NCBI RefSeq assembly: GCF_019801465.1
Contig: NZ_JAHVJA010000001.1
Coordinates: 124,001-188,000, forward strand
Reading direction: 5' to 3'
DNA length: 64,000 nt
From: Leisingera daeponensis
Lineage (GTDB): Bacteria > Pseudomonadota > Alphaproteobacteria > Rhodobacterales > Rhodobacteraceae
Made by a program: the position numbers and the translations under genes. This document shows positions 22,854 through 47,561 of the stretch, piece by piece (the stretch's first letter is position 1; each line of letters opens with the position of its first letter). Under the pieces are notes generated by a model. The model was not told where the DNA came from. It worked only from the letters and a program-made list of their open reading frames with translations, and searched no databases.

Positions 22854-22928
22854 GGGTGATTAGCTCAGTGGTAGAGCGCTTCGTTCACATCGAAGATGTC
22901 AGGAGTTCAAATCTCTTATCACCCACCA
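22854..22928 (+). tRNA. tRNA-Val (anticodon CAC)
   Basis: Full cloverleaf: acceptor GGGTGAT pairs with ATCACCC, D arm GCTC/GAGC, anticodon stem CTTCG/CGAAG with loop TTCACAT (anticodon CAC, reads GTG) and T arm around GTTCAAATC. The CCA end is encoded. It lies directly after the HU-like gene, so it may share its transcript. Confidence 0.95.
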
Positions 22929-23044
22929 TCTTTCCCGAAAGGCGCTCCCTGAAAAGGTTGAGCGCCTTTTGCGTTTCCGGGGTTCCTCAGGCGGCTGTGT
23001 GCCGTTACCACTTTGCCTGAAAAAAGACGGGCAGGGAGCATGTG

Positions 23045-23614
23045 ATGCAATTTCCGAAAATCTGGCTGCTGCGCCACGGGCAGACCGAATGGAATGCCGA
23101 GCGGCGAATCCAGGGGCAGCTGGAATCGCCGCTGACGCCGCAGGGGGTGGAGCAGGCCCGCAGGCAGGCAACGCTGATGGCGCCCGTCATGGCGCAGAAA
23201 CCGGCCTGTTATGCCTCGCCCCTGGGGCGGGCGCAGCAGACCGCGGACATTGCTTTGGGCGGTGCGCCTTTCGTGACTGACCCGCGCCTGGCAGAGGCCT
23301 ATGCCGGTGCGTTTCAGGGCATGACTCTGGCGGAAGTGGCGGCAGAGTACCCGCAGATCCACAGGGCGAATCCGCGCAATCTGGACCTGTTCTGCGAAGC
23401 GCCGGGCGGCGAGGGCTACGGCAGTTTCCACGCCCGCATCCTGGATTTCATGCAGTCGCTGGCCGGGCCGTCGGTGGTGGTGGCGCACGGGCTGCTGGGA
23501 CAGGTGATGCGCGGGATCGTCTGCGGCCTGCCGCGGGACCGGATGGCGGCGCTGCCGAACGGGCAGGGGTGCGTCTATGTGCTGGAAAACGGAGCGGAAA
23601 CGGTCCTGGAGTAA
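23045..23614 (+). CDS. Histidine phosphatase family protein (phosphoglycerate mutase-like)
   Basis: Cytoplasmic protein of 189 residues. The catalytic His is in LLRHGQTEWN near the N-terminus, the second Arg is in SPLGRAQQTA, the acid is in RLAEAYAGAFQGM, and the second His is in VVVAHGLLGQVMRG. The RHGxTxWN form belongs to the cofactor-dependent phosphoglycerate-mutase-like phosphatases, which include alpha-ribazole phosphatase and broad phosphatases; the substrate is unknown. The ATG at 23045 is preferred to a GTG at 23042 because GGGAG at 23034 gives six bases of spacing. It is convergent with the porin-like gene, with a GC-rich stem between. Confidence 0.88.
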   Translation: MQFPKIWLLRHGQTEWNAERRIQGQLESPLTPQGVEQARRQATLMAPVMAQKPACYASPLGRAQQTADIALGGAPFVTDPRLAEAYAGAFQGMTLAEVAAEYPQIHRANPRNLDLFCEAPGGEGYGSFHARILDFMQSLAGPSVVVAHGLLGQVMRGIVCGLPRDRMAALPNGQGCVYVLENGAETVLE

Positions 23615-23648
23615 GCCGGGCCGCAGGGGCGGCGGCCCGGCGCGAGGC

Positions 23649-24353
23649 TCAGAGGCCCGGCAGCTTGCTCACCAGCCCTCGGCGGCCGAAGGTGGTGCCG
23701 CGGTTGGCGCCGAAGTCCCACTTGAATCCGATGCCGACAAAGGCCTCGTTGCCGGACAGGTTCTGCGCGTCTGCGTTCAGTGAGCCGAGCTCGCCGTAGA
23801 ACTTTGCGCCTTCGCCGATGTCATACTCGGCGCCTGCGGCAATCCGGGTGAGGTCGATGCTGCCAAGATCCAGATGGTCGAGGCCTGCGTTAATGGTGAA
23901 TTGGCTGGTCACGTCCTTGCGGATGGCAATGCCGGCGATGGTGCCGGAAATTGCGCCGTCATCGCCTTCGCCCAAGTAGAATTCCGCGTCGGCAAAGCCG
24001 AATTCGTGCCCGGCCTCGATGCCATAGAAGTCGTATTCATCGTTGCCAGCTTCCTCGACGCCGTAGAACAAGCCCAGCGAGGTGCTGTCGCTGACGTGGG
24101 CAATACCGTGAAGGGTAGCATTGGCGCCTTCGAGGCGGGTGGCGTTGAAATCCGCGTAGAACAGGTCGAGCTGGGTGGAAAAACCGCGTGAAAACCCGAG
24201 TTCCAGCGCGCCGCCCACCGCCTTGCGCGCAAAATCCGTGTCGTCTGCAAAGGCGGAGGTCGAAAGGTCGAAGCTGCCGCCGGTGATTTCGGCGGCCTGC
24301 AGGCTGCCGGCCATTGCCGCTGCCGCGGCTGCTGCGCCAATTATGCGTTTCAT
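23649..24353 (-). CDS. Porin-like outer-membrane protein
   Basis: A 234-residue exported protein. It starts with an Ala-rich signal peptide (MKRIIGAAAAAAAMAGSLQA, cleavage before AEITG). The mature part alternates hydrophobic and polar residues with many acidic and Gly/aromatic turns (GALELGFSRGFSTQLDLFYA, FYGIEAGHEFGFADAEFYLG), as in Rhodobacteraceae porin-family barrels. The predicted last strand (EAFVGIGFKWDF) is followed by about 20 extra residues, so the C-terminal aromatic is not at the very end. The start at 24353 has GGAG eight bases ahead. Function is not known; it could be a small channel or structural barrel. Confidence 0.72.
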   Translation of the reverse strand: MKRIIGAAAAAAAMAGSLQAAEITGGSFDLSTSAFADDTDFARKAVGGALELGFSRGFSTQLDLFYADFNATRLEGANATLHGIAHVSDSTSLGLFYGVEEAGNDEYDFYGIEAGHEFGFADAEFYLGEGDDGAISGTIAGIAIRKDVTSQFTINAGLDHLDLGSIDLTRIAAGAEYDIGEGAKFYGELGSLNADAQNLSGNEAFVGIGFKWDFGANRGTTFGRRGLVSKLPGL

Positions 24354-24550
24354 GAAAACTGCTCCAGTCGTGTGGCGTGGGCCGTCCTCTGCAATTTCCG
24401 GGCCGGCTGGATAGGGTGCTAGGGGAGCGCCGCACCGGTTGGCAATAATGATCGGGCCGCGGCCTGGCGGCCGGATCGGAGTGTTGCGCGGCTGCACGGA
24501 AGGGGCGGGATGCGGCGGTGGAAAAACCGGAAAAAAAATCCTTCCGCCTC

Positions 24551-24578
24551 TTGCGCTGCCGGGCGGCATTCTCTAAAT
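24551..24578 (+). promoter_or_regulatory. Possible promoter of tRNA-Val(TAC)
   Basis: TTGCGC (24551-24556) is followed after 15-16 bases by CTCTAAAT (24571-24578), with the tRNA beginning 12 bases on. The spacing is a little short, so this is tentative. Confidence 0.4.
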
Positions 24579-24589
24579 CCCCGCTCACC

Positions 24590-24665
<76 letters not shown>

Positions 24666-24799
24666 TTCCCCCTCAGACAGATACGTCGAACGAACTGCTG
24701 CGGCCACCTGTGCCGGGCTTGGTTTTATATATTTTTCAATGGCTTGCTGGCTGGAGATCATTTTTTTTCCGGAAACCTCCGAAAAAGGCAAAACACCGC

Positions 24800-24828
24800 T
24801 TGACGCTTTGGGGGGTGGAGAATATTAC
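24800..24828 (+). promoter_or_regulatory. Promoter of the tRNA-Asp triplet
   Basis: TTGACG (24800-24805) and TATTAC (24823-24828) are separated by exactly 17 bases. They lie 37 bases before the first tRNA-Asp. Good match to the housekeeping consensus. Confidence 0.65.
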
Positions 24829-24865
24829 AGCCCAACATTCGGCAGCGATGCTGAATGCGCAGCGG

Positions 24866-24942
24866 GCGGTTGTAGCTCAGTTGGTTAGAGTACCGGCCTG
24901 TCACGCCGGGGGTCGCGGGTTCGAGCCCCGTCAACCGCGCCA
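24866..24942 (+). tRNA. tRNA-Asp (anticodon GTC), copy 1
   Basis: Acceptor GCGGTTG/CAACCGC, anticodon stem CCGGC/GCCGG with loop CTGTCAC (anticodon GTC), T arm around GTTCGAGCC, CCA encoded. It is identical to the two that follow. Confidence 0.96.
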
Positions 24943-25024
24943 CTGCTGTACCTCATCCTGGGGTTAATCAGGATCCGCCCCGGAGGGGAACTGGACCGGA
25001 GACGGTCTGCCGCAAGGCGAAAAT

Positions 25025-25101
25025 GCGGTTGTAGCTCAGTTGGTTAGAGTACCGGCCTGTCACGCCGGGGGTCGCGGGTTCGAGCCCCGTCAACCGCGCC
25101 A
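25025..25101 (+). tRNA. tRNA-Asp (anticodon GTC), copy 2
   Basis: Same 77-base sequence as copy 1, 82 bases further on. The spacer begins differently but holds a similar CCGCCCCGGA..GGGGA stretch, so the unit was probably duplicated with its flank. Confidence 0.96.
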
Positions 25102-25168
25102 CTTTCGCCCGCCGCCCTGGCGCTTCAGGGTCCGCCCCGGACGGGGACCATGGCCGAAAGGCCCATGC

Positions 25169-25245
25169 GCGGTTGTAGCTCAGTTGGTTAGAGTACCGGC
25201 CTGTCACGCCGGGGGTCGCGGGTTCGAGCCCCGTCAACCGCGCCA
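25169..25245 (+). tRNA. tRNA-Asp (anticodon GTC), copy 3
   Basis: Same 77-base sequence as copies 1 and 2. The 67-base spacer holds TCCGCCCCGGACGGGGAC, close to the spacer before copy 2. The three probably come from one precursor processed by RNases. Confidence 0.96.
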
Positions 25246-43908: not shown

Positions 43909-44469
43909 TCAGTTGCCGCGCAGCAGGGCGGCAACACCGGTGCGGGCGATCTCGCTCAGGCCGAGCGGGCGCATCAGATCGGCGAAGGCATCGATCTTTT
44001 CCGGCGCACCGGTGATTTCAAAGACAAAGCTGTTCAGGGTGCTGTCGACGACGTTGGCGCGGAAGATATCCGCCAGCCTCAGCGCTTCGACGCGCTTGTC
44101 GCCTTCACCGGCCACCTTCAGGATCGCCAGCTCGCGCTCCACGGCAGCGCCCTCGACCGTCAAGTCATGCACGTCGCGGACCGACACGATGCGGCCGAGC
44201 TGCGCCTTGATCTGTTCGATCACCTGCGGGGTGCCGGTGGTGACAATGGTGATGCGGCTGAGGTGGCCGGTATGGTCCACCTCCGCCACAGTCAGGCTTT
44301 CGATGTTGTAGCCGCGGCCGGAGAAAAGCCCGATGACGCGGGCGAGGACGCCGGGTTCGTTTTCCACCAGCACCGCAATGGTGTGCCGCTCCTGCACGTC
44401 CGAAAACGTCGGGCGCAGGTTGTAGGCGGAATGGCGGTTGGAGCCTTTTTTGATGTGTAGGGCAGACAT
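43909..44469 (-). CDS. ilvH: Acetolactate synthase small (regulatory) subunit
   Basis: A 186-residue subunit that activates the catalytic subunit and gives valine feedback. An ACT domain (about 30-100) starts HTIAVLVENEPGVLARVIGL with the Asn/Gly valine-site segment FSGRGYNIESLTVAEV. The C-terminal domain (about 105-186) includes LKVAGEGDKRVEALRLADIF. Length is normal for IlvH. The start at 44469 is preferred; an upstream ATG at 44508 adds a basic leader. It follows the large subunit on the same strand with 85 bases between, forming an ilvIH operon under the attenuator. Confidence 0.94.
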   Translation of the reverse strand: MSALHIKKGSNRHSAYNLRPTFSDVQERHTIAVLVENEPGVLARVIGLFSGRGYNIESLTVAEVDHTGHLSRITIVTTGTPQVIEQIKAQLGRIVSVRDVHDLTVEGAAVERELAILKVAGEGDKRVEALRLADIFRANVVDSTLNSFVFEITGAPEKIDAFADLMRPLGLSEIARTGVAALLRGN

Positions 44470-44554
44470 TCGTGGTCTTCCTCTCGTATGTCGCTGCCTG
44501 AAGGACACGGGCTTTCAGGCGAATTCCTCGAAGAAACTTGCGGCGCTGCCGCGG

Positions 44555-46306
44555 TTACACCAGCACTGCGCCGCCGGCCTGGATGACGCCCTGCGTCTCG
44601 GCCTCGCCCAGCAGCATCTCGTTGTGCGCCTTGCCCGACGGGATCATCGGGAAGCAGTTCTCGTGCTTCTCCACCAGGCAGTCGAAGATCACCGGCCCGT
44701 CGTATTCGATCATTTCCATGATCGCATCATCCAGGTCCGCGGGATCGCTGACGCAAATGCCCTTGCAGCCGAAGGCTTCGGCGAGCTTCACGAAATCAGG
44801 CAGCGCCTCGGACCAGCTGTGGCTGTAGCGCTCGCCGTGCAGCAGCTCTTGCCACTGGCGCACCATTCCGAGGCGCTCGTTGTTGAGGATGAACTGCTTG
44901 ACCGGCAAGCGGAACTGCACCGCGGTGCCCATCTCCTGCATGTTCATCAGCCAGGACGCCTCGCCCGCGACGTTGATGACCAGCGCGTCCGGATGCGCCA
45001 TCTGGGCGCCGATCGAAGCCGGGAAGCCATAGCCCATGGTGCCGAGCCCTCCGGAAGTCATCCAGCGGTTCGGATCCTCGAAGTTCAGGTACTGCGCCGC
45101 CCACATCTGGTGCTGGCCGACTTCGGTGGTGACATAGCGGTCGCGGCCCTTGGTCAGTTCCTCCAGGCGCTGCAGCGCATACTGCGGCTTGATGGTCTTC
45201 TCGGAGTTCTTGAACGACAGGCAGTCCACCGCGCGCCATTCATCGATCTGCTTGTGCCATTTCTGCAGCGCCTCGCGGTTCACTTTGCGGCCGCGCGATT
45301 TCCAGACCTTCAGCAGATCCTCCAGCACATGGGCGACATCGCCGACAATCGGAATGTCGACCCGGATCACCTTGTTGATCGAGGAGGGATCGATATCGAT
45401 ATGCGCCTTTTTCGACTTCGGGCTGAAGGCATCGATGCGGCCGGTGATCCGGTCATCGAAGCGGGCGCCGATGTTGATCATCAGGTCGCAGCCGTGCATC
45501 GCCATGTTGGCCTCGTAAAGCCCGTGCATGCCGAGCATCCCCAGCCAGTTCCTGCCGGACGCCGGATAGGCGCCAAGCCCCATCAGGGTCGAGGTGACCG
45601 GGATGCCGGTGGCGTCGACCAGTTCACGCAGCAGCTGGCTGGCCGCCGGGCCGGAGTTGATGACGCCGCCGCCGGTATAAAACACCGGGCGCTTGGCCTT
45701 CTCGATGGCCTCGACCAGTTCGGTGATCTCCTCCATGTCGCCCTTCAGCTGCGGCTGGTAATGCGAGGCCGAGGGTTTCGGCCCCTGATACTTGCCGCTT
45801 GCGAACTGCACGTCCTTGGGGATGTCGACCAGGACCGGGCCCGGGCGGCCGGATTTGGCGACATGGAAGGCCTCGTGCAGCGTTCCGGCCAGCGCTTCGG
45901 TGTCCTTGACCAGCCAGTTGTGCTTGGTGCAGGGGCGGGTGATGCCGACGGTATCCGCCTCCTGGAAGGCGTCCGAGCCGATCATGAAGGTCGGCACCTG
46001 GCCGGTCAGAACCACGATCGGGATCGAATCCAGCAGCGCATCGGTGAGGCCGGTGACCGCATTGGTGGCGCCGGGGCCGGACGTCACCAGCACAACGCCG
46101 GGCTTGCCGGTGGAGCGGGCATAGCCTTCGGCGGCGTGCACGGCGCCCTGTTCGTGCCGCACCAGAACATGGCGGATGTCATTCTGCAGAAAGATCTCGT
46201 CATAGATCGGCAGCACGGCGCCGCCTGGGTATCCGAAGACTACGTCCACACCCTGATCCTTCAGGGCTTGGACAACCATCTTTGCGCCGGTCATTTCACG
46301 TGTCAT
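44555..46306 (-). CDS. ilvI: Acetolactate synthase large subunit
   Basis: ThDP- and FAD-dependent enzyme of 583 residues that makes acetolactate and acetohydroxybutyrate, the first common step of Val, Leu and Ile synthesis. Catalytic Glu52 is in VRHEQGAVHAAEGYA. The FAD region and MGLGAYP lie in the middle. The ThDP-binding motif reads VAGEASWLMN and ends in ILNNERLG; the usual metal-binding Asp (GDGS or GDAS) is Glu here. The same substitution may occur in relatives, which I cannot check. Regulation by attenuation is visible upstream. GGAG is ten bases before the ATG. Confidence 0.95.
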   Translation of the reverse strand: MTREMTGAKMVVQALKDQGVDVVFGYPGGAVLPIYDEIFLQNDIRHVLVRHEQGAVHAAEGYARSTGKPGVVLVTSGPGATNAVTGLTDALLDSIPIVVLTGQVPTFMIGSDAFQEADTVGITRPCTKHNWLVKDTEALAGTLHEAFHVAKSGRPGPVLVDIPKDVQFASGKYQGPKPSASHYQPQLKGDMEEITELVEAIEKAKRPVFYTGGGVINSGPAASQLLRELVDATGIPVTSTLMGLGAYPASGRNWLGMLGMHGLYEANMAMHGCDLMINIGARFDDRITGRIDAFSPKSKKAHIDIDPSSINKVIRVDIPIVGDVAHVLEDLLKVWKSRGRKVNREALQKWHKQIDEWRAVDCLSFKNSEKTIKPQYALQRLEELTKGRDRYVTTEVGQHQMWAAQYLNFEDPNRWMTSGGLGTMGYGFPASIGAQMAHPDALVINVAGEASWLMNMQEMGTAVQFRLPVKQFILNNERLGMVRQWQELLHGERYSHSWSEALPDFVKLAEAFGCKGICVSDPADLDDAIMEMIEYDGPVIFDCLVEKHENCFPMIPSGKAHNEMLLGEAETQGVIQAGGAVLV

Positions 46307-46345: not shown

Positions 46346-46376
46346 TAAAAAAAGCCCCCGATTTCAGGTCGGAGGC
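46346..46376 (-). terminator. Attenuator terminator of ilvIH
   Basis: On the reverse strand GCCTCCGA (46376-46369) pairs with TCGGGGGC (46361-46354) with one G-T pair, followed by seven T (46353-46347). It stands between the leader peptide and ilvI. Confidence 0.85.
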
Positions 46377-46417
46377 GCATGGGTTCGATTATGGTCTACC
46401 GTTACCGGCCCATGCGC
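46375..46417 (-). promoter_or_regulatory. Alternative (antiterminator-type) stem of the ilvIH leader
   Basis: GCGCATGGG (46417-46409, in the end of the leader peptide) pairs perfectly with CCCATGCGC (46383-46375). The second arm shares two bases with the terminator stem, so the two forms compete at their edge. Position of the ribosome on the Leu-Val-Ile codons would decide between them. Confidence 0.6.
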
Positions 46418-46449
46418 TTGGTTCCTACGATTACGACTAGGGTGGTCAC
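46402..46449 (-). CDS. ilvIH leader peptide (attenuator)
   Basis: Fifteen-residue peptide on the reverse strand, start GTG at 46449, stop TAA at 46402, reading (M)TTLVVIVGTKRMGR. Five consecutive codons are Leu-Val-Val-Ile-Val, the three amino acids made by the pathway. AGGAG lies nine bases before the start. Stalling at these codons would be expected when branched-chain aminoacyl-tRNA is low, letting transcription pass the terminator. It is too short for standard gene calling. Confidence 0.85.
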   Translation of the reverse strand: MTTLVVIVGTKRMGR

Positions 46450-46479
46450 GGCCACAGGCTCCTTTTTGCGTTGCGGGCG

Positions 46480-46508
46480 ACATTATGTGTGCCGGGCAGG
46501 GGCGTCAA
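46480..46508 (-). promoter_or_regulatory. Promoter of the ilvIH leader
   Basis: On the reverse strand TTGACG (46508-46503) is followed after 17 bases by TAATGT (46485-46480), overlapping CATAAT with 15-base spacing. Predicted start at about 46473, some 24 bases before the leader GTG. Confidence 0.6.
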
Positions 46509-46709
46509 CCGCGAAAGCTGTCAAAAAAGACCTGTTCAGGGACATTTTCTTGCTCCCGTCACGGGGTGGTGTGAAATATCCGCGAAAATGGCGGCGGTTT
46601 CGGGGGCGGAATCGTTCAAAACCGGCATGCCTGTGTCCCGTTTGTGCCAGATCAGCCCTCCTGCTGCGGGCAAGTTCAAGTGCAAAGAGGTGACAAGGAA
46701 GGACAAGGC

Positions 46710-47561
46710 ATGGCGGATCTTGCAGAGGTTGTGGATCTTGGACGCTATCCAATCGACCGCCCGGGCTCGCAGGCTTATGCGCGGATGATGGAGGATTTGC
46801 AAAGCGAGCTGGAGACTGACGGCTGTGCGGTGCTTCCGGGATTCGCGCATTCGGACGGTATTGCCCGGCTGGCGGCAGAGGCCGAATCCGTGGCCAGCCA
46901 GGGACATAAGTCCTTCAGCCGCACCAATGCCTATTTCTCCAAGGACGATCCGTCCTTGCCGGAAACCCATCCCGTCCGCCAGTTCTACGACCGCTCCAAC
47001 GCCTTCATCCCGGCGGACAACTTCGGTGCGGACGGCCCGCTGCGGGCGGTTTATGAATACCCTGGATTCATGCCGTTCATCCGTGAAGCCTTGGGGGAGC
47101 CGGAAGGCCGCTTCTTCCGCTATGACGACCCGCTGGCGGATGTGATCGTCAACATGGTGGAGGAAGGTCAGGGCTTCCCCTGGCATTTCGACACGAACAA
47201 TTACACGGTGACGCTGGCCATCCAGAACGGCGAGGCGGGCGGCGAATTCGAATATGCACCGATGCTGCGCACCTCCACGGACGAAAATTATGACGGGGTG
47301 GCGCGGGTGCTGGCAGGCGGCTCGCCGCTGGTGCACAAGCTGGTGCTTCAGCCGGGGGACTTGCAGATTTTCCGCGGCCGCTATTCGCTTCACCGGGTGG
47401 CCCCGGTCGAAGGCCCGCGCAGGCGCTATGTCGGTATCTTCTCCTTTGCCGAGACCGAGGGGATGTGCGGCGGGGTGGAGCGCACCAGGCAGCTTTACGG
47501 CCGGGTTCTGCCGCGCCACTACGAGCGTGAAGGGCTCCGCGCCGACGCCCTGCGGGACTGA
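46710..47561 (+). CDS. 2-oxoglutarate/Fe(II) oxygenase of the HalD/BesD type
   Basis: A 283-residue cytoplasmic protein of the Fe(II)/2OG cupin fold. His159 and Asp161 in GFPWHFDTNNYTVTL and His228 in RGRYSLHRVAPVEG form the metal triad, and an Arg in GPRRRY (237-239) should bind 2-oxoglutarate. Segments such as FFRYDDPLADVIVNMVEEGQ resemble the BesD/HalD group of free amino-acid halogenases and hydroxylases. Those halogenases have Gly in place of Asp at the second position; here Asp is present, so hydroxylation is more likely. The substrate is unknown. Start at 46710 follows AAGGA. It is divergent from ilvIH, with 200 bases of leader and promoter sequence shared. Confidence 0.75.
   Translation: MADLAEVVDLGRYPIDRPGSQAYARMMEDLQSELETDGCAVLPGFAHSDGIARLAAEAESVASQGHKSFSRTNAYFSKDDPSLPETHPVRQFYDRSNAFIPADNFGADGPLRAVYEYPGFMPFIREALGEPEGRFFRYDDPLADVIVNMVEEGQGFPWHFDTNNYTVTLAIQNGEAGGEFEYAPMLRTSTDENYDGVARVLAGGSPLVHKLVLQPGDLQIFRGRYSLHRVAPVEGPRRRYVGIFSFAETEGMCGGVERTRQLYGRVLPRHYEREGLRADALRD

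Follow-up and report, generated by a model that had tools for sequence, protein, structure and literature searches.

A predicted branched-chain amino-acid attenuator ahead of ilvIH in a Leisingera-like member of the Rhodobacteraceae

Background

Attenuators of ilvIH are said to have been predicted in Alphaproteobacteria by Vitreschak and colleagues in 2004. Transcription attenuation by way of an ilv leader ahead of ilvIH is presented for Caulobacter in the legend of Figure 6C of PMC4117421, which cites Tarleton 1994; a passage in PMC2573895 names an 'ilvIH cis regulatory' element in S. meliloti, and a passage in PMC1273637 refers to an ilvB leader peptide already known from alpha-proteobacteria, both citing Vitreschak 2004. 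For enterobacteria, a section of PMC6123439 gives leaders of 32 residues, of which 15 and 11 are branched-chain.

Here we describe a leader ahead of ilvIH in a stretch of 64,000 nucleotides (the window) whose source is a Leisingera-like bacterium of the Rhodobacteraceae; the best-matching named loci are from Leisingera, with 97-98% ilvI identity. The leader is very probably a ribosome-mediated branched-chain amino-acid transcription attenuator, through which ilvIH expression would follow how much charged Leu, Val and Ile tRNA is available.

Sequence sets and folding

The ilvI loci of relatives were collected as 110 rows, three of which were duplicates, leaving 107 distinct loci; the leader was called in 103 of these by script and in one more (L075) by eye. 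Codon and length statistics were drawn from 67 non-redundant representatives (<85% identity). The alignment (A1) comprises 63 of the 67, with L079, L099 and L108 (diverged stems) and L098 left out. L051 was dropped from later sets by the terminator pattern though its leader is present, and L053, L060, L065 and L075 were excluded. For the ribosome model, a 30-base footprint was set at each codon and each leader was folded; the folding is at equilibrium and ignores kinetics.

The leader region and its parts

The minus strand of the window contains, from position 46508 to 46347, a promoter, a Shine-Dalgarno site, a leader ORF, a stem and a terminator, followed by ilvI (44555..46306; acetolactate synthase large subunit, Pfam TPP_enzyme_N/M/C) and ilvH (43909..44508; small subunit, Pfam ALS_ss_C and ACT_AHAS_ss). 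An earlier note on this DNA had claimed a promoter, ribosome site, leader, competing stem and seven-T terminator here; all are present, on the minus strand, and its coordinates and its leader peptide with Leu-Val-Val-Ile-Val codons are right. As in an attenuator, a short, Leu/Ile/Val-rich and translated-looking ORF lies ahead of a biosynthetic operon, and an intrinsic terminator lies between this ORF and ilvI.

The -35 element TTGACG (46503..46508; TTGAC is conserved in relatives) and the -10 element CATAAT (46482..46487; the relatives' commonest -10 and spacing), from which transcription would presumably start, are separated by a spacer of 15 nt. No promoter is listed in the leader region by the promoter scan, because this spacer falls outside its 16-18 nt rule. 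The Shine-Dalgarno site AAGGAG (46459..46464), with SD-like counterparts in relatives, serves the leader ORF (46402..46449), which is recognized from its sequence, conservation and codon statistics. The ORF encodes MTTLVVIVGTKRMGR from a GTG start to a TAA stop and reads GTG ACC ACC CTA GTC GTA ATC GTA GGA ACC AAG CGC ATG GGC CGG TAA; the control codons within these 15 codons are CTA GTC GTA ATC GTA. An inner AUG with the purine-rich GTAGGA upstream could open a three-codon ORF (MGR), a speculation from the letters.

The proposed 5' arm of the antiterminator, arm A (GCGCATGGG, 46409..46417), is seen in the inverted repeat and in the alignment, and its replacement in silico abolishes the modelled switch; it spans the last base of Lys11 and the Arg-Met-Gly codons, up to the second base of Gly. 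A small hairpin, CCG-GUAA-CGG (46399..46408), recognized by pairing across 63 sequences, holds the stop codon in its loop. The proposed 3' arm, A' (CCCATGCGC, 46375..46383), is seen in sequence and alignment, and its last two bases are the first two of the terminator 5' arm, so that they are common to both structures. The terminator hairpin, GCCTCCGA-cctgaaa-TCGGGGGC (46354..46376; terminator scan and alignment), is followed by its T7 tract (46347..46353; sequence and terminator scan). On the plus strand, the divergent neighbour (46707-47561) matches Pfam HalD at 44.3 bits (cut-off 26) and encodes a 2-oxoglutarate-dependent oxygenase/halogenase-like protein.

Taken singly, the parts of the leader hardly exceed chance: one terminator-like site was found against a shuffle mean of 0.8, and the leader fold has a z of -2.2, with 6 of 200 shuffles equally stable. 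The exact long inverted repeat A:A' is not chance (one found, 0.01 expected in 64 kb). It is conservation among relatives that decides, at the level of sequence, that the leader is real.

Conservation in relatives

The earlier note had named a lack of conservation in relatives as grounds against the leader; a leader is present upstream of ilvI in 104 of the 107 distinct related loci. The loci without a called leader are L053, in which a contig end cuts the region, L060 and L065. The last, from the close relative Nereida sp. MMG025, keeps TTGACG and has neither leader nor terminator upstream of ilvI, a natural loss.

Among the 67 representatives the leader is exactly 15 residues long in 58 and ends in RMGR in 56, and five Leu/Ile/Val codons are the commonest count (37/67); the short peptide and the small number of control codons, which the earlier note had singled out as unusual, are normal for the family. 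The ORF starts with ATG in 59 leaders, GTG in 6 and TTG in 2, and stops with TAA in 46, TGA in 19 and TAG in 2, with a C directly after the stop codon in 57. In 65 of the 67, TTGAC lies no more than 80 nt before the leader start, where mononucleotide shuffles give a mean of 4.1 of 67; within these 65, the best -10 is most often CATAAT (16) and the commonest promoter spacing is 15 nt (46). An SD-like motif precedes the leader in 62 of the 67 relatives.

Across the class, the exact-stem pattern was found in 7 of 289 genomes, with four of four in the window's own family. The remaining matches are G143, in the leader of a transporter gene, and G047 and G173; the latter two were taken as chance, with leader and terminator absent around them. 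Upstream of ilvI in 13 other alphaproteobacterial genomes, a leader was recognized in one only (G040, by eye, MTTQLVLIRQPLSGRD), and the element is therefore not universal in the class; the ORFs that the script listed in L133, L139 and L140 looked spurious. The survey of six further own-family genomes, which left out G017, gave a clear leader in G036, diverged leaders in G024 and G028, and leaders seen by eye only in G021, G032 and G034, that of G032 having few Ile/Val/Leu codons.

Control codons

From genus to genus Leu, Val and Ile come in different orders (LVVIV, ILVLV, VVLIV, VLVIV and others), and the number of these codons stays at about five. Rare codons are favoured: in the 67 leaders CTA occurs 33 times against 1.7 expected from ilvI of the same genomes (19-fold enriched), GTA 93 times against 8.4 (11-fold) and ATT 41 times against 12.0, while CTG, GTG and GTT are depleted. 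The mean synonymous share of the leader Leu/Ile/Val codons is 0.211; the value for such codons in early ilvI is 0.404, and for the remaining leader codons 0.344. In the window's own ilvI, CTA (0 of 48 Leu codons) and GTA (1 of 49 Val codons) are rare; GTC (23 of 49 Val codons) and ATC (30 of 33 Ile codons) are common, and both are among the control codons of the leader. Theory for the sharpening of attenuators by rare control codons is set out in a section of PMC1183508, which cites a CUA experiment in the leu attenuator.

The window also carries, at 22854-25245 on the plus strand, genes for tRNA-Val(CAC), tRNA-Val(TAC) and three tRNA-Asp(GTC). The tRNA-Val(TAC) should read the rare GTA control codons.

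Competing pairings and the modelled switch

At both of the two shared bases (alignment columns 111-112), standard pairing with arm A is kept in all 63 aligned sequences; with the terminator 3' arm it is kept in 63 and 61. Terminator pairs are mostly kept in 91-100% of the sequences, the innermost pair in only 32 of 61.

In the ribosome model, the mean probability of the basal terminator pair over 67 sequences is 0.33-0.40 with the ribosome on control codons 11 to 9 codons before the stop, 0.98 one codon further on, and 0.92 at the stop. For the window's own leader it is 0.01 at Leu4, 0.00 at Val5 and Val6, 0.04 at Ile7, 0.98 at Val8 and 0.69 at the stop. When arm A was replaced in silico, the probability was 0.88-0.92 at every ribosome position (63 sequences) and the switch was lost. 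What follows when the ribosome waits at Val8, the last control codon, depends on the footprint: a +15 footprint gives termination (0.98) and a +12 footprint antitermination (0.37). With either footprint, 13-23 of the 63 sequences keep a basal-pair probability above 0.5 despite the stall, and for +15 at position n-8 this is true of all 63. The third-last terminator base is still paired during the stall (mean 0.64-0.69), the inner terminator often survives, and L058 has nearly no switch in folding. In the model, then, the position of the ribosome governs which of two mutually exclusive structures forms; this holds for the average and for the window's own leader, and the effect is weak or missing in some relatives, L058 among them.

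The stop hairpin is nested inside A:A' and is mostly CCG-GURA-CGG, with a loop of mostly GUAA or GUGA; 91.5% of its cells are paired (63 sequences), and two of its three pairs change on both sides. In stem A, seven of the nine pairs have identical letters in 62-63 of the 63 sequences, an invariance that the omission of the four representatives from the alignment makes look greater than it is; the other stems of the same RNA vary. Covariation in stem A is nearly nil, with a double change in one sequence (L045). This invariance may reflect a double constraint, by the RMG peptide and by pairing.

A candidate long-range pairing of the 5' end of the RNA (ACGCAAAAAGGAGCC) with the U tract and the bases that follow was also examined. 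A swap test gave z -3.2 (p 0.001) with 18 divergent leaders, for one of 28 window combinations, and z -4 to -8 with a larger but related set. The nearest-neighbour pair test was weak: it gave a sign p of 0.21 for the U-tract version and of 0.017 and 0.019 for the post-U version, and was not significant for the other windows; this test has low power, as the stop hairpin also failed it (p 0.5, 14 pairs).

Related leaders in Rhizobiales

The leader in the window weakly matches Rfam family RF02502 (21.1 bits), and rhizobial ilvI leaders were therefore examined. Upstream of ilvI, RF02502 scores 121.1 bits in S. meliloti (the gene is annotated as acetolactate synthase) and 113.8 bits in Shinella, where the leader peptides are MKNFAVILVVGRRMGRMV and MKNLTAIILVVGRRMGRVV, respectively; the matches lie at 2479-2599 in both L156 and L158, the loci of these two. 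RF02502, filed as 'Rhizobiales sRNA Atu_C8', is thus probably an attenuator RNA.

The module also stands ahead of an MFS transporter gene, in six genomes of family f107 and nine Rhizobium/Phyllobacterium plasmid records (L111, L122-L126, L157 and L159-L166, by RF02502 or blastn); these are 15 of the 17 classified loci, a proportion without meaning, since the plasmid collection favours plasmid-borne copies, 11 of 17 matching records were fetched and Rhizobiaceae chromosomes lay outside the scope. RF02502 scores 70.7-98.8 bits for the transporter leaders of the six f107 genomes and 96.9-110.9 bits for four of the plasmid-borne ones, the other five having been found by blastn. The transporter gene of R. 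etli IE4803 is annotated as Bcr/CflA; in the leader copy ahead of it, the hairpin contains no in-frame stop. The f107 genomes' own ilvI, found in five of the six, lacks the stem in the 281-500 bases upstream; for G343 no ilvI was matched within the limit applied. The parts of the module are a leader of the form ...VVxxRMG..., the stem GCGCATGGG:CCCATGCGC, a stop codon in the hairpin loop, and a terminator.

Folding of the rhizobial type gave no switch: in 14 of the 15 leaders the terminator keeps a probability of about 1 wherever, or almost wherever, the ribosome is placed, with exceptions in L125, which dips to 0.54-0.69 at two positions, and L124 (0.2-0.5 throughout). Since stem and terminator are not in competition here at folding equilibrium, the read-out in these leaders would have to differ from the classical one.

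We tentatively suggest, with somewhat more doubt than confidence, that the branched-chain attenuator is a portable cassette, a Rhizobiales module at ilvI with a related copy at a Bcr/CflA-type MFS gene, which accompanies the transporter in f107, where ilvI has no such leader. If so, the exporter would respond to slow translation of Val, Leu and Ile codons, be it through starvation or through ribosome-slowing drugs, and 'sRNA Atu_C8' would be the product of an attenuator. The open-licence literature on Atu_C8, RF02502 and CflA leader attenuation yielded no account of the element as an attenuator and none of a transporter copy; RF02502 appears in PMC5913331 as a benchmark family only.

Proposed mechanism and alternative explanations

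The aligned sequences show the parts of the Rhodobacteraceae leader and how well these are conserved, as well as the codon bias and the two pairings that compete. The earlier note's proposal of an ilvIH attenuator is supported by the gene context (Pfam ilvI/ilvH), by the conservation of a Leu/Ile/Val ORF with shifting residue order, by the rare-codon bias and by two conserved, exclusive pairings. With ample supply, the ribosome would reach the stop codon and cover arm A at the Arg-Met-Gly codons, leaving A' free; the terminator would then be complete to its base, and transcription in vivo would stop before ilvI. In short supply, we infer, the ribosome would be held on CTA/GTC/GTA/ATC/GTA with arm A exposed just ahead; A and A' would pair, the terminator would lose its two basal pairs beside the T tract, a loss presumed sufficient to block termination, and RNA polymerase would read into ilvIH. 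Against this account stand the partial switch of many relatives, the common codons GTC and ATC in the window's own control block, the near lack of covariation in stem A, and the two relatives, L060 and L065, that have no leader.

That the arms A:A' instead form a polymerase pause hairpin or a stop-codon device, with starvation acting in another way, we consider unlikely. The stop codon does lie in a hairpin loop, and in 14 of the 15 folded rhizobial-type relatives A' is no competitor of the terminator; the Rhodobacteraceae type, however, conserves the two shared bases together with both pairings, and the modelled switch requires arm A. A quite improbable reading, in which a trans-acting small RNA is the main product of the element and attenuation is secondary, draws on the filing of RF02502 as a Rhizobiales sRNA that the S. 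meliloti ilvI leader matches at 121 bits, on A:A' letters more invariant than pairing alone requires, and on the S. meliloti trp attenuator RNA, which works in trans according to a part of PMC10117765. Yet the leader lies directly ahead of ilvI in nearly all of the distinct Rhodobacteraceae-type loci (104/107), and the rare-codon bias and the shifting Leu/Ile/Val order make sense only if the ORF is translated; an attenuator would moreover yield such an RNA anyway, so that the two readings are compatible. That a constitutive terminator and a spurious ORF came together by chance would fit the near-chance level of the single parts, but is contradicted by the same conservation and by the codon statistics, and we regard it as extremely improbable.

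The ribosome-mediated attenuator would offer a comparative model of branched-chain amino-acid sensing in the Rhodobacteraceae, an abundant marine group, with a minimal and easily testable layout of 15 codons and two shared bases. It also suggests a functional reading for the Rfam 'sRNA' family RF02502, and a like leader ahead of a transporter gene would tie amino-acid sensing or ribosome slowing to export.

Comparison with known systems

The enterobacterial ilvG, ilvB and leu attenuators have the logic of control codons, antiterminator and terminator in common with the window. The leader in the window differs from them in having 15 residues, five control codons and no separate segment 1:2, and in that the final part of the ORF contains its antiterminator arm, which has only two bases in common with the terminator. 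In Rfam RF02502 (Atu_C8) the parts stand in the same order and the stem, GCGCAUGGG:CCCAUGCGC, is likewise found; at 21.1 bits the window falls below the gathering cut-off of 50 and is not counted as a member; the rhizobial leaders have two or three extra codons after RMG, and their terminator does not overlap A'. The alpha-proteobacterial ilvIH/ilvBN attenuators (Caulobacter ilvL, S. meliloti) resemble the window, by description and not by letters, in the branched-chain leader ORF, the terminator, the downstream ilvI or ilvB and the class of the host. The kind itself is not new: attenuators of this sort had already been predicted for alpha-proteobacteria, and the leader described here adds a new member to them.
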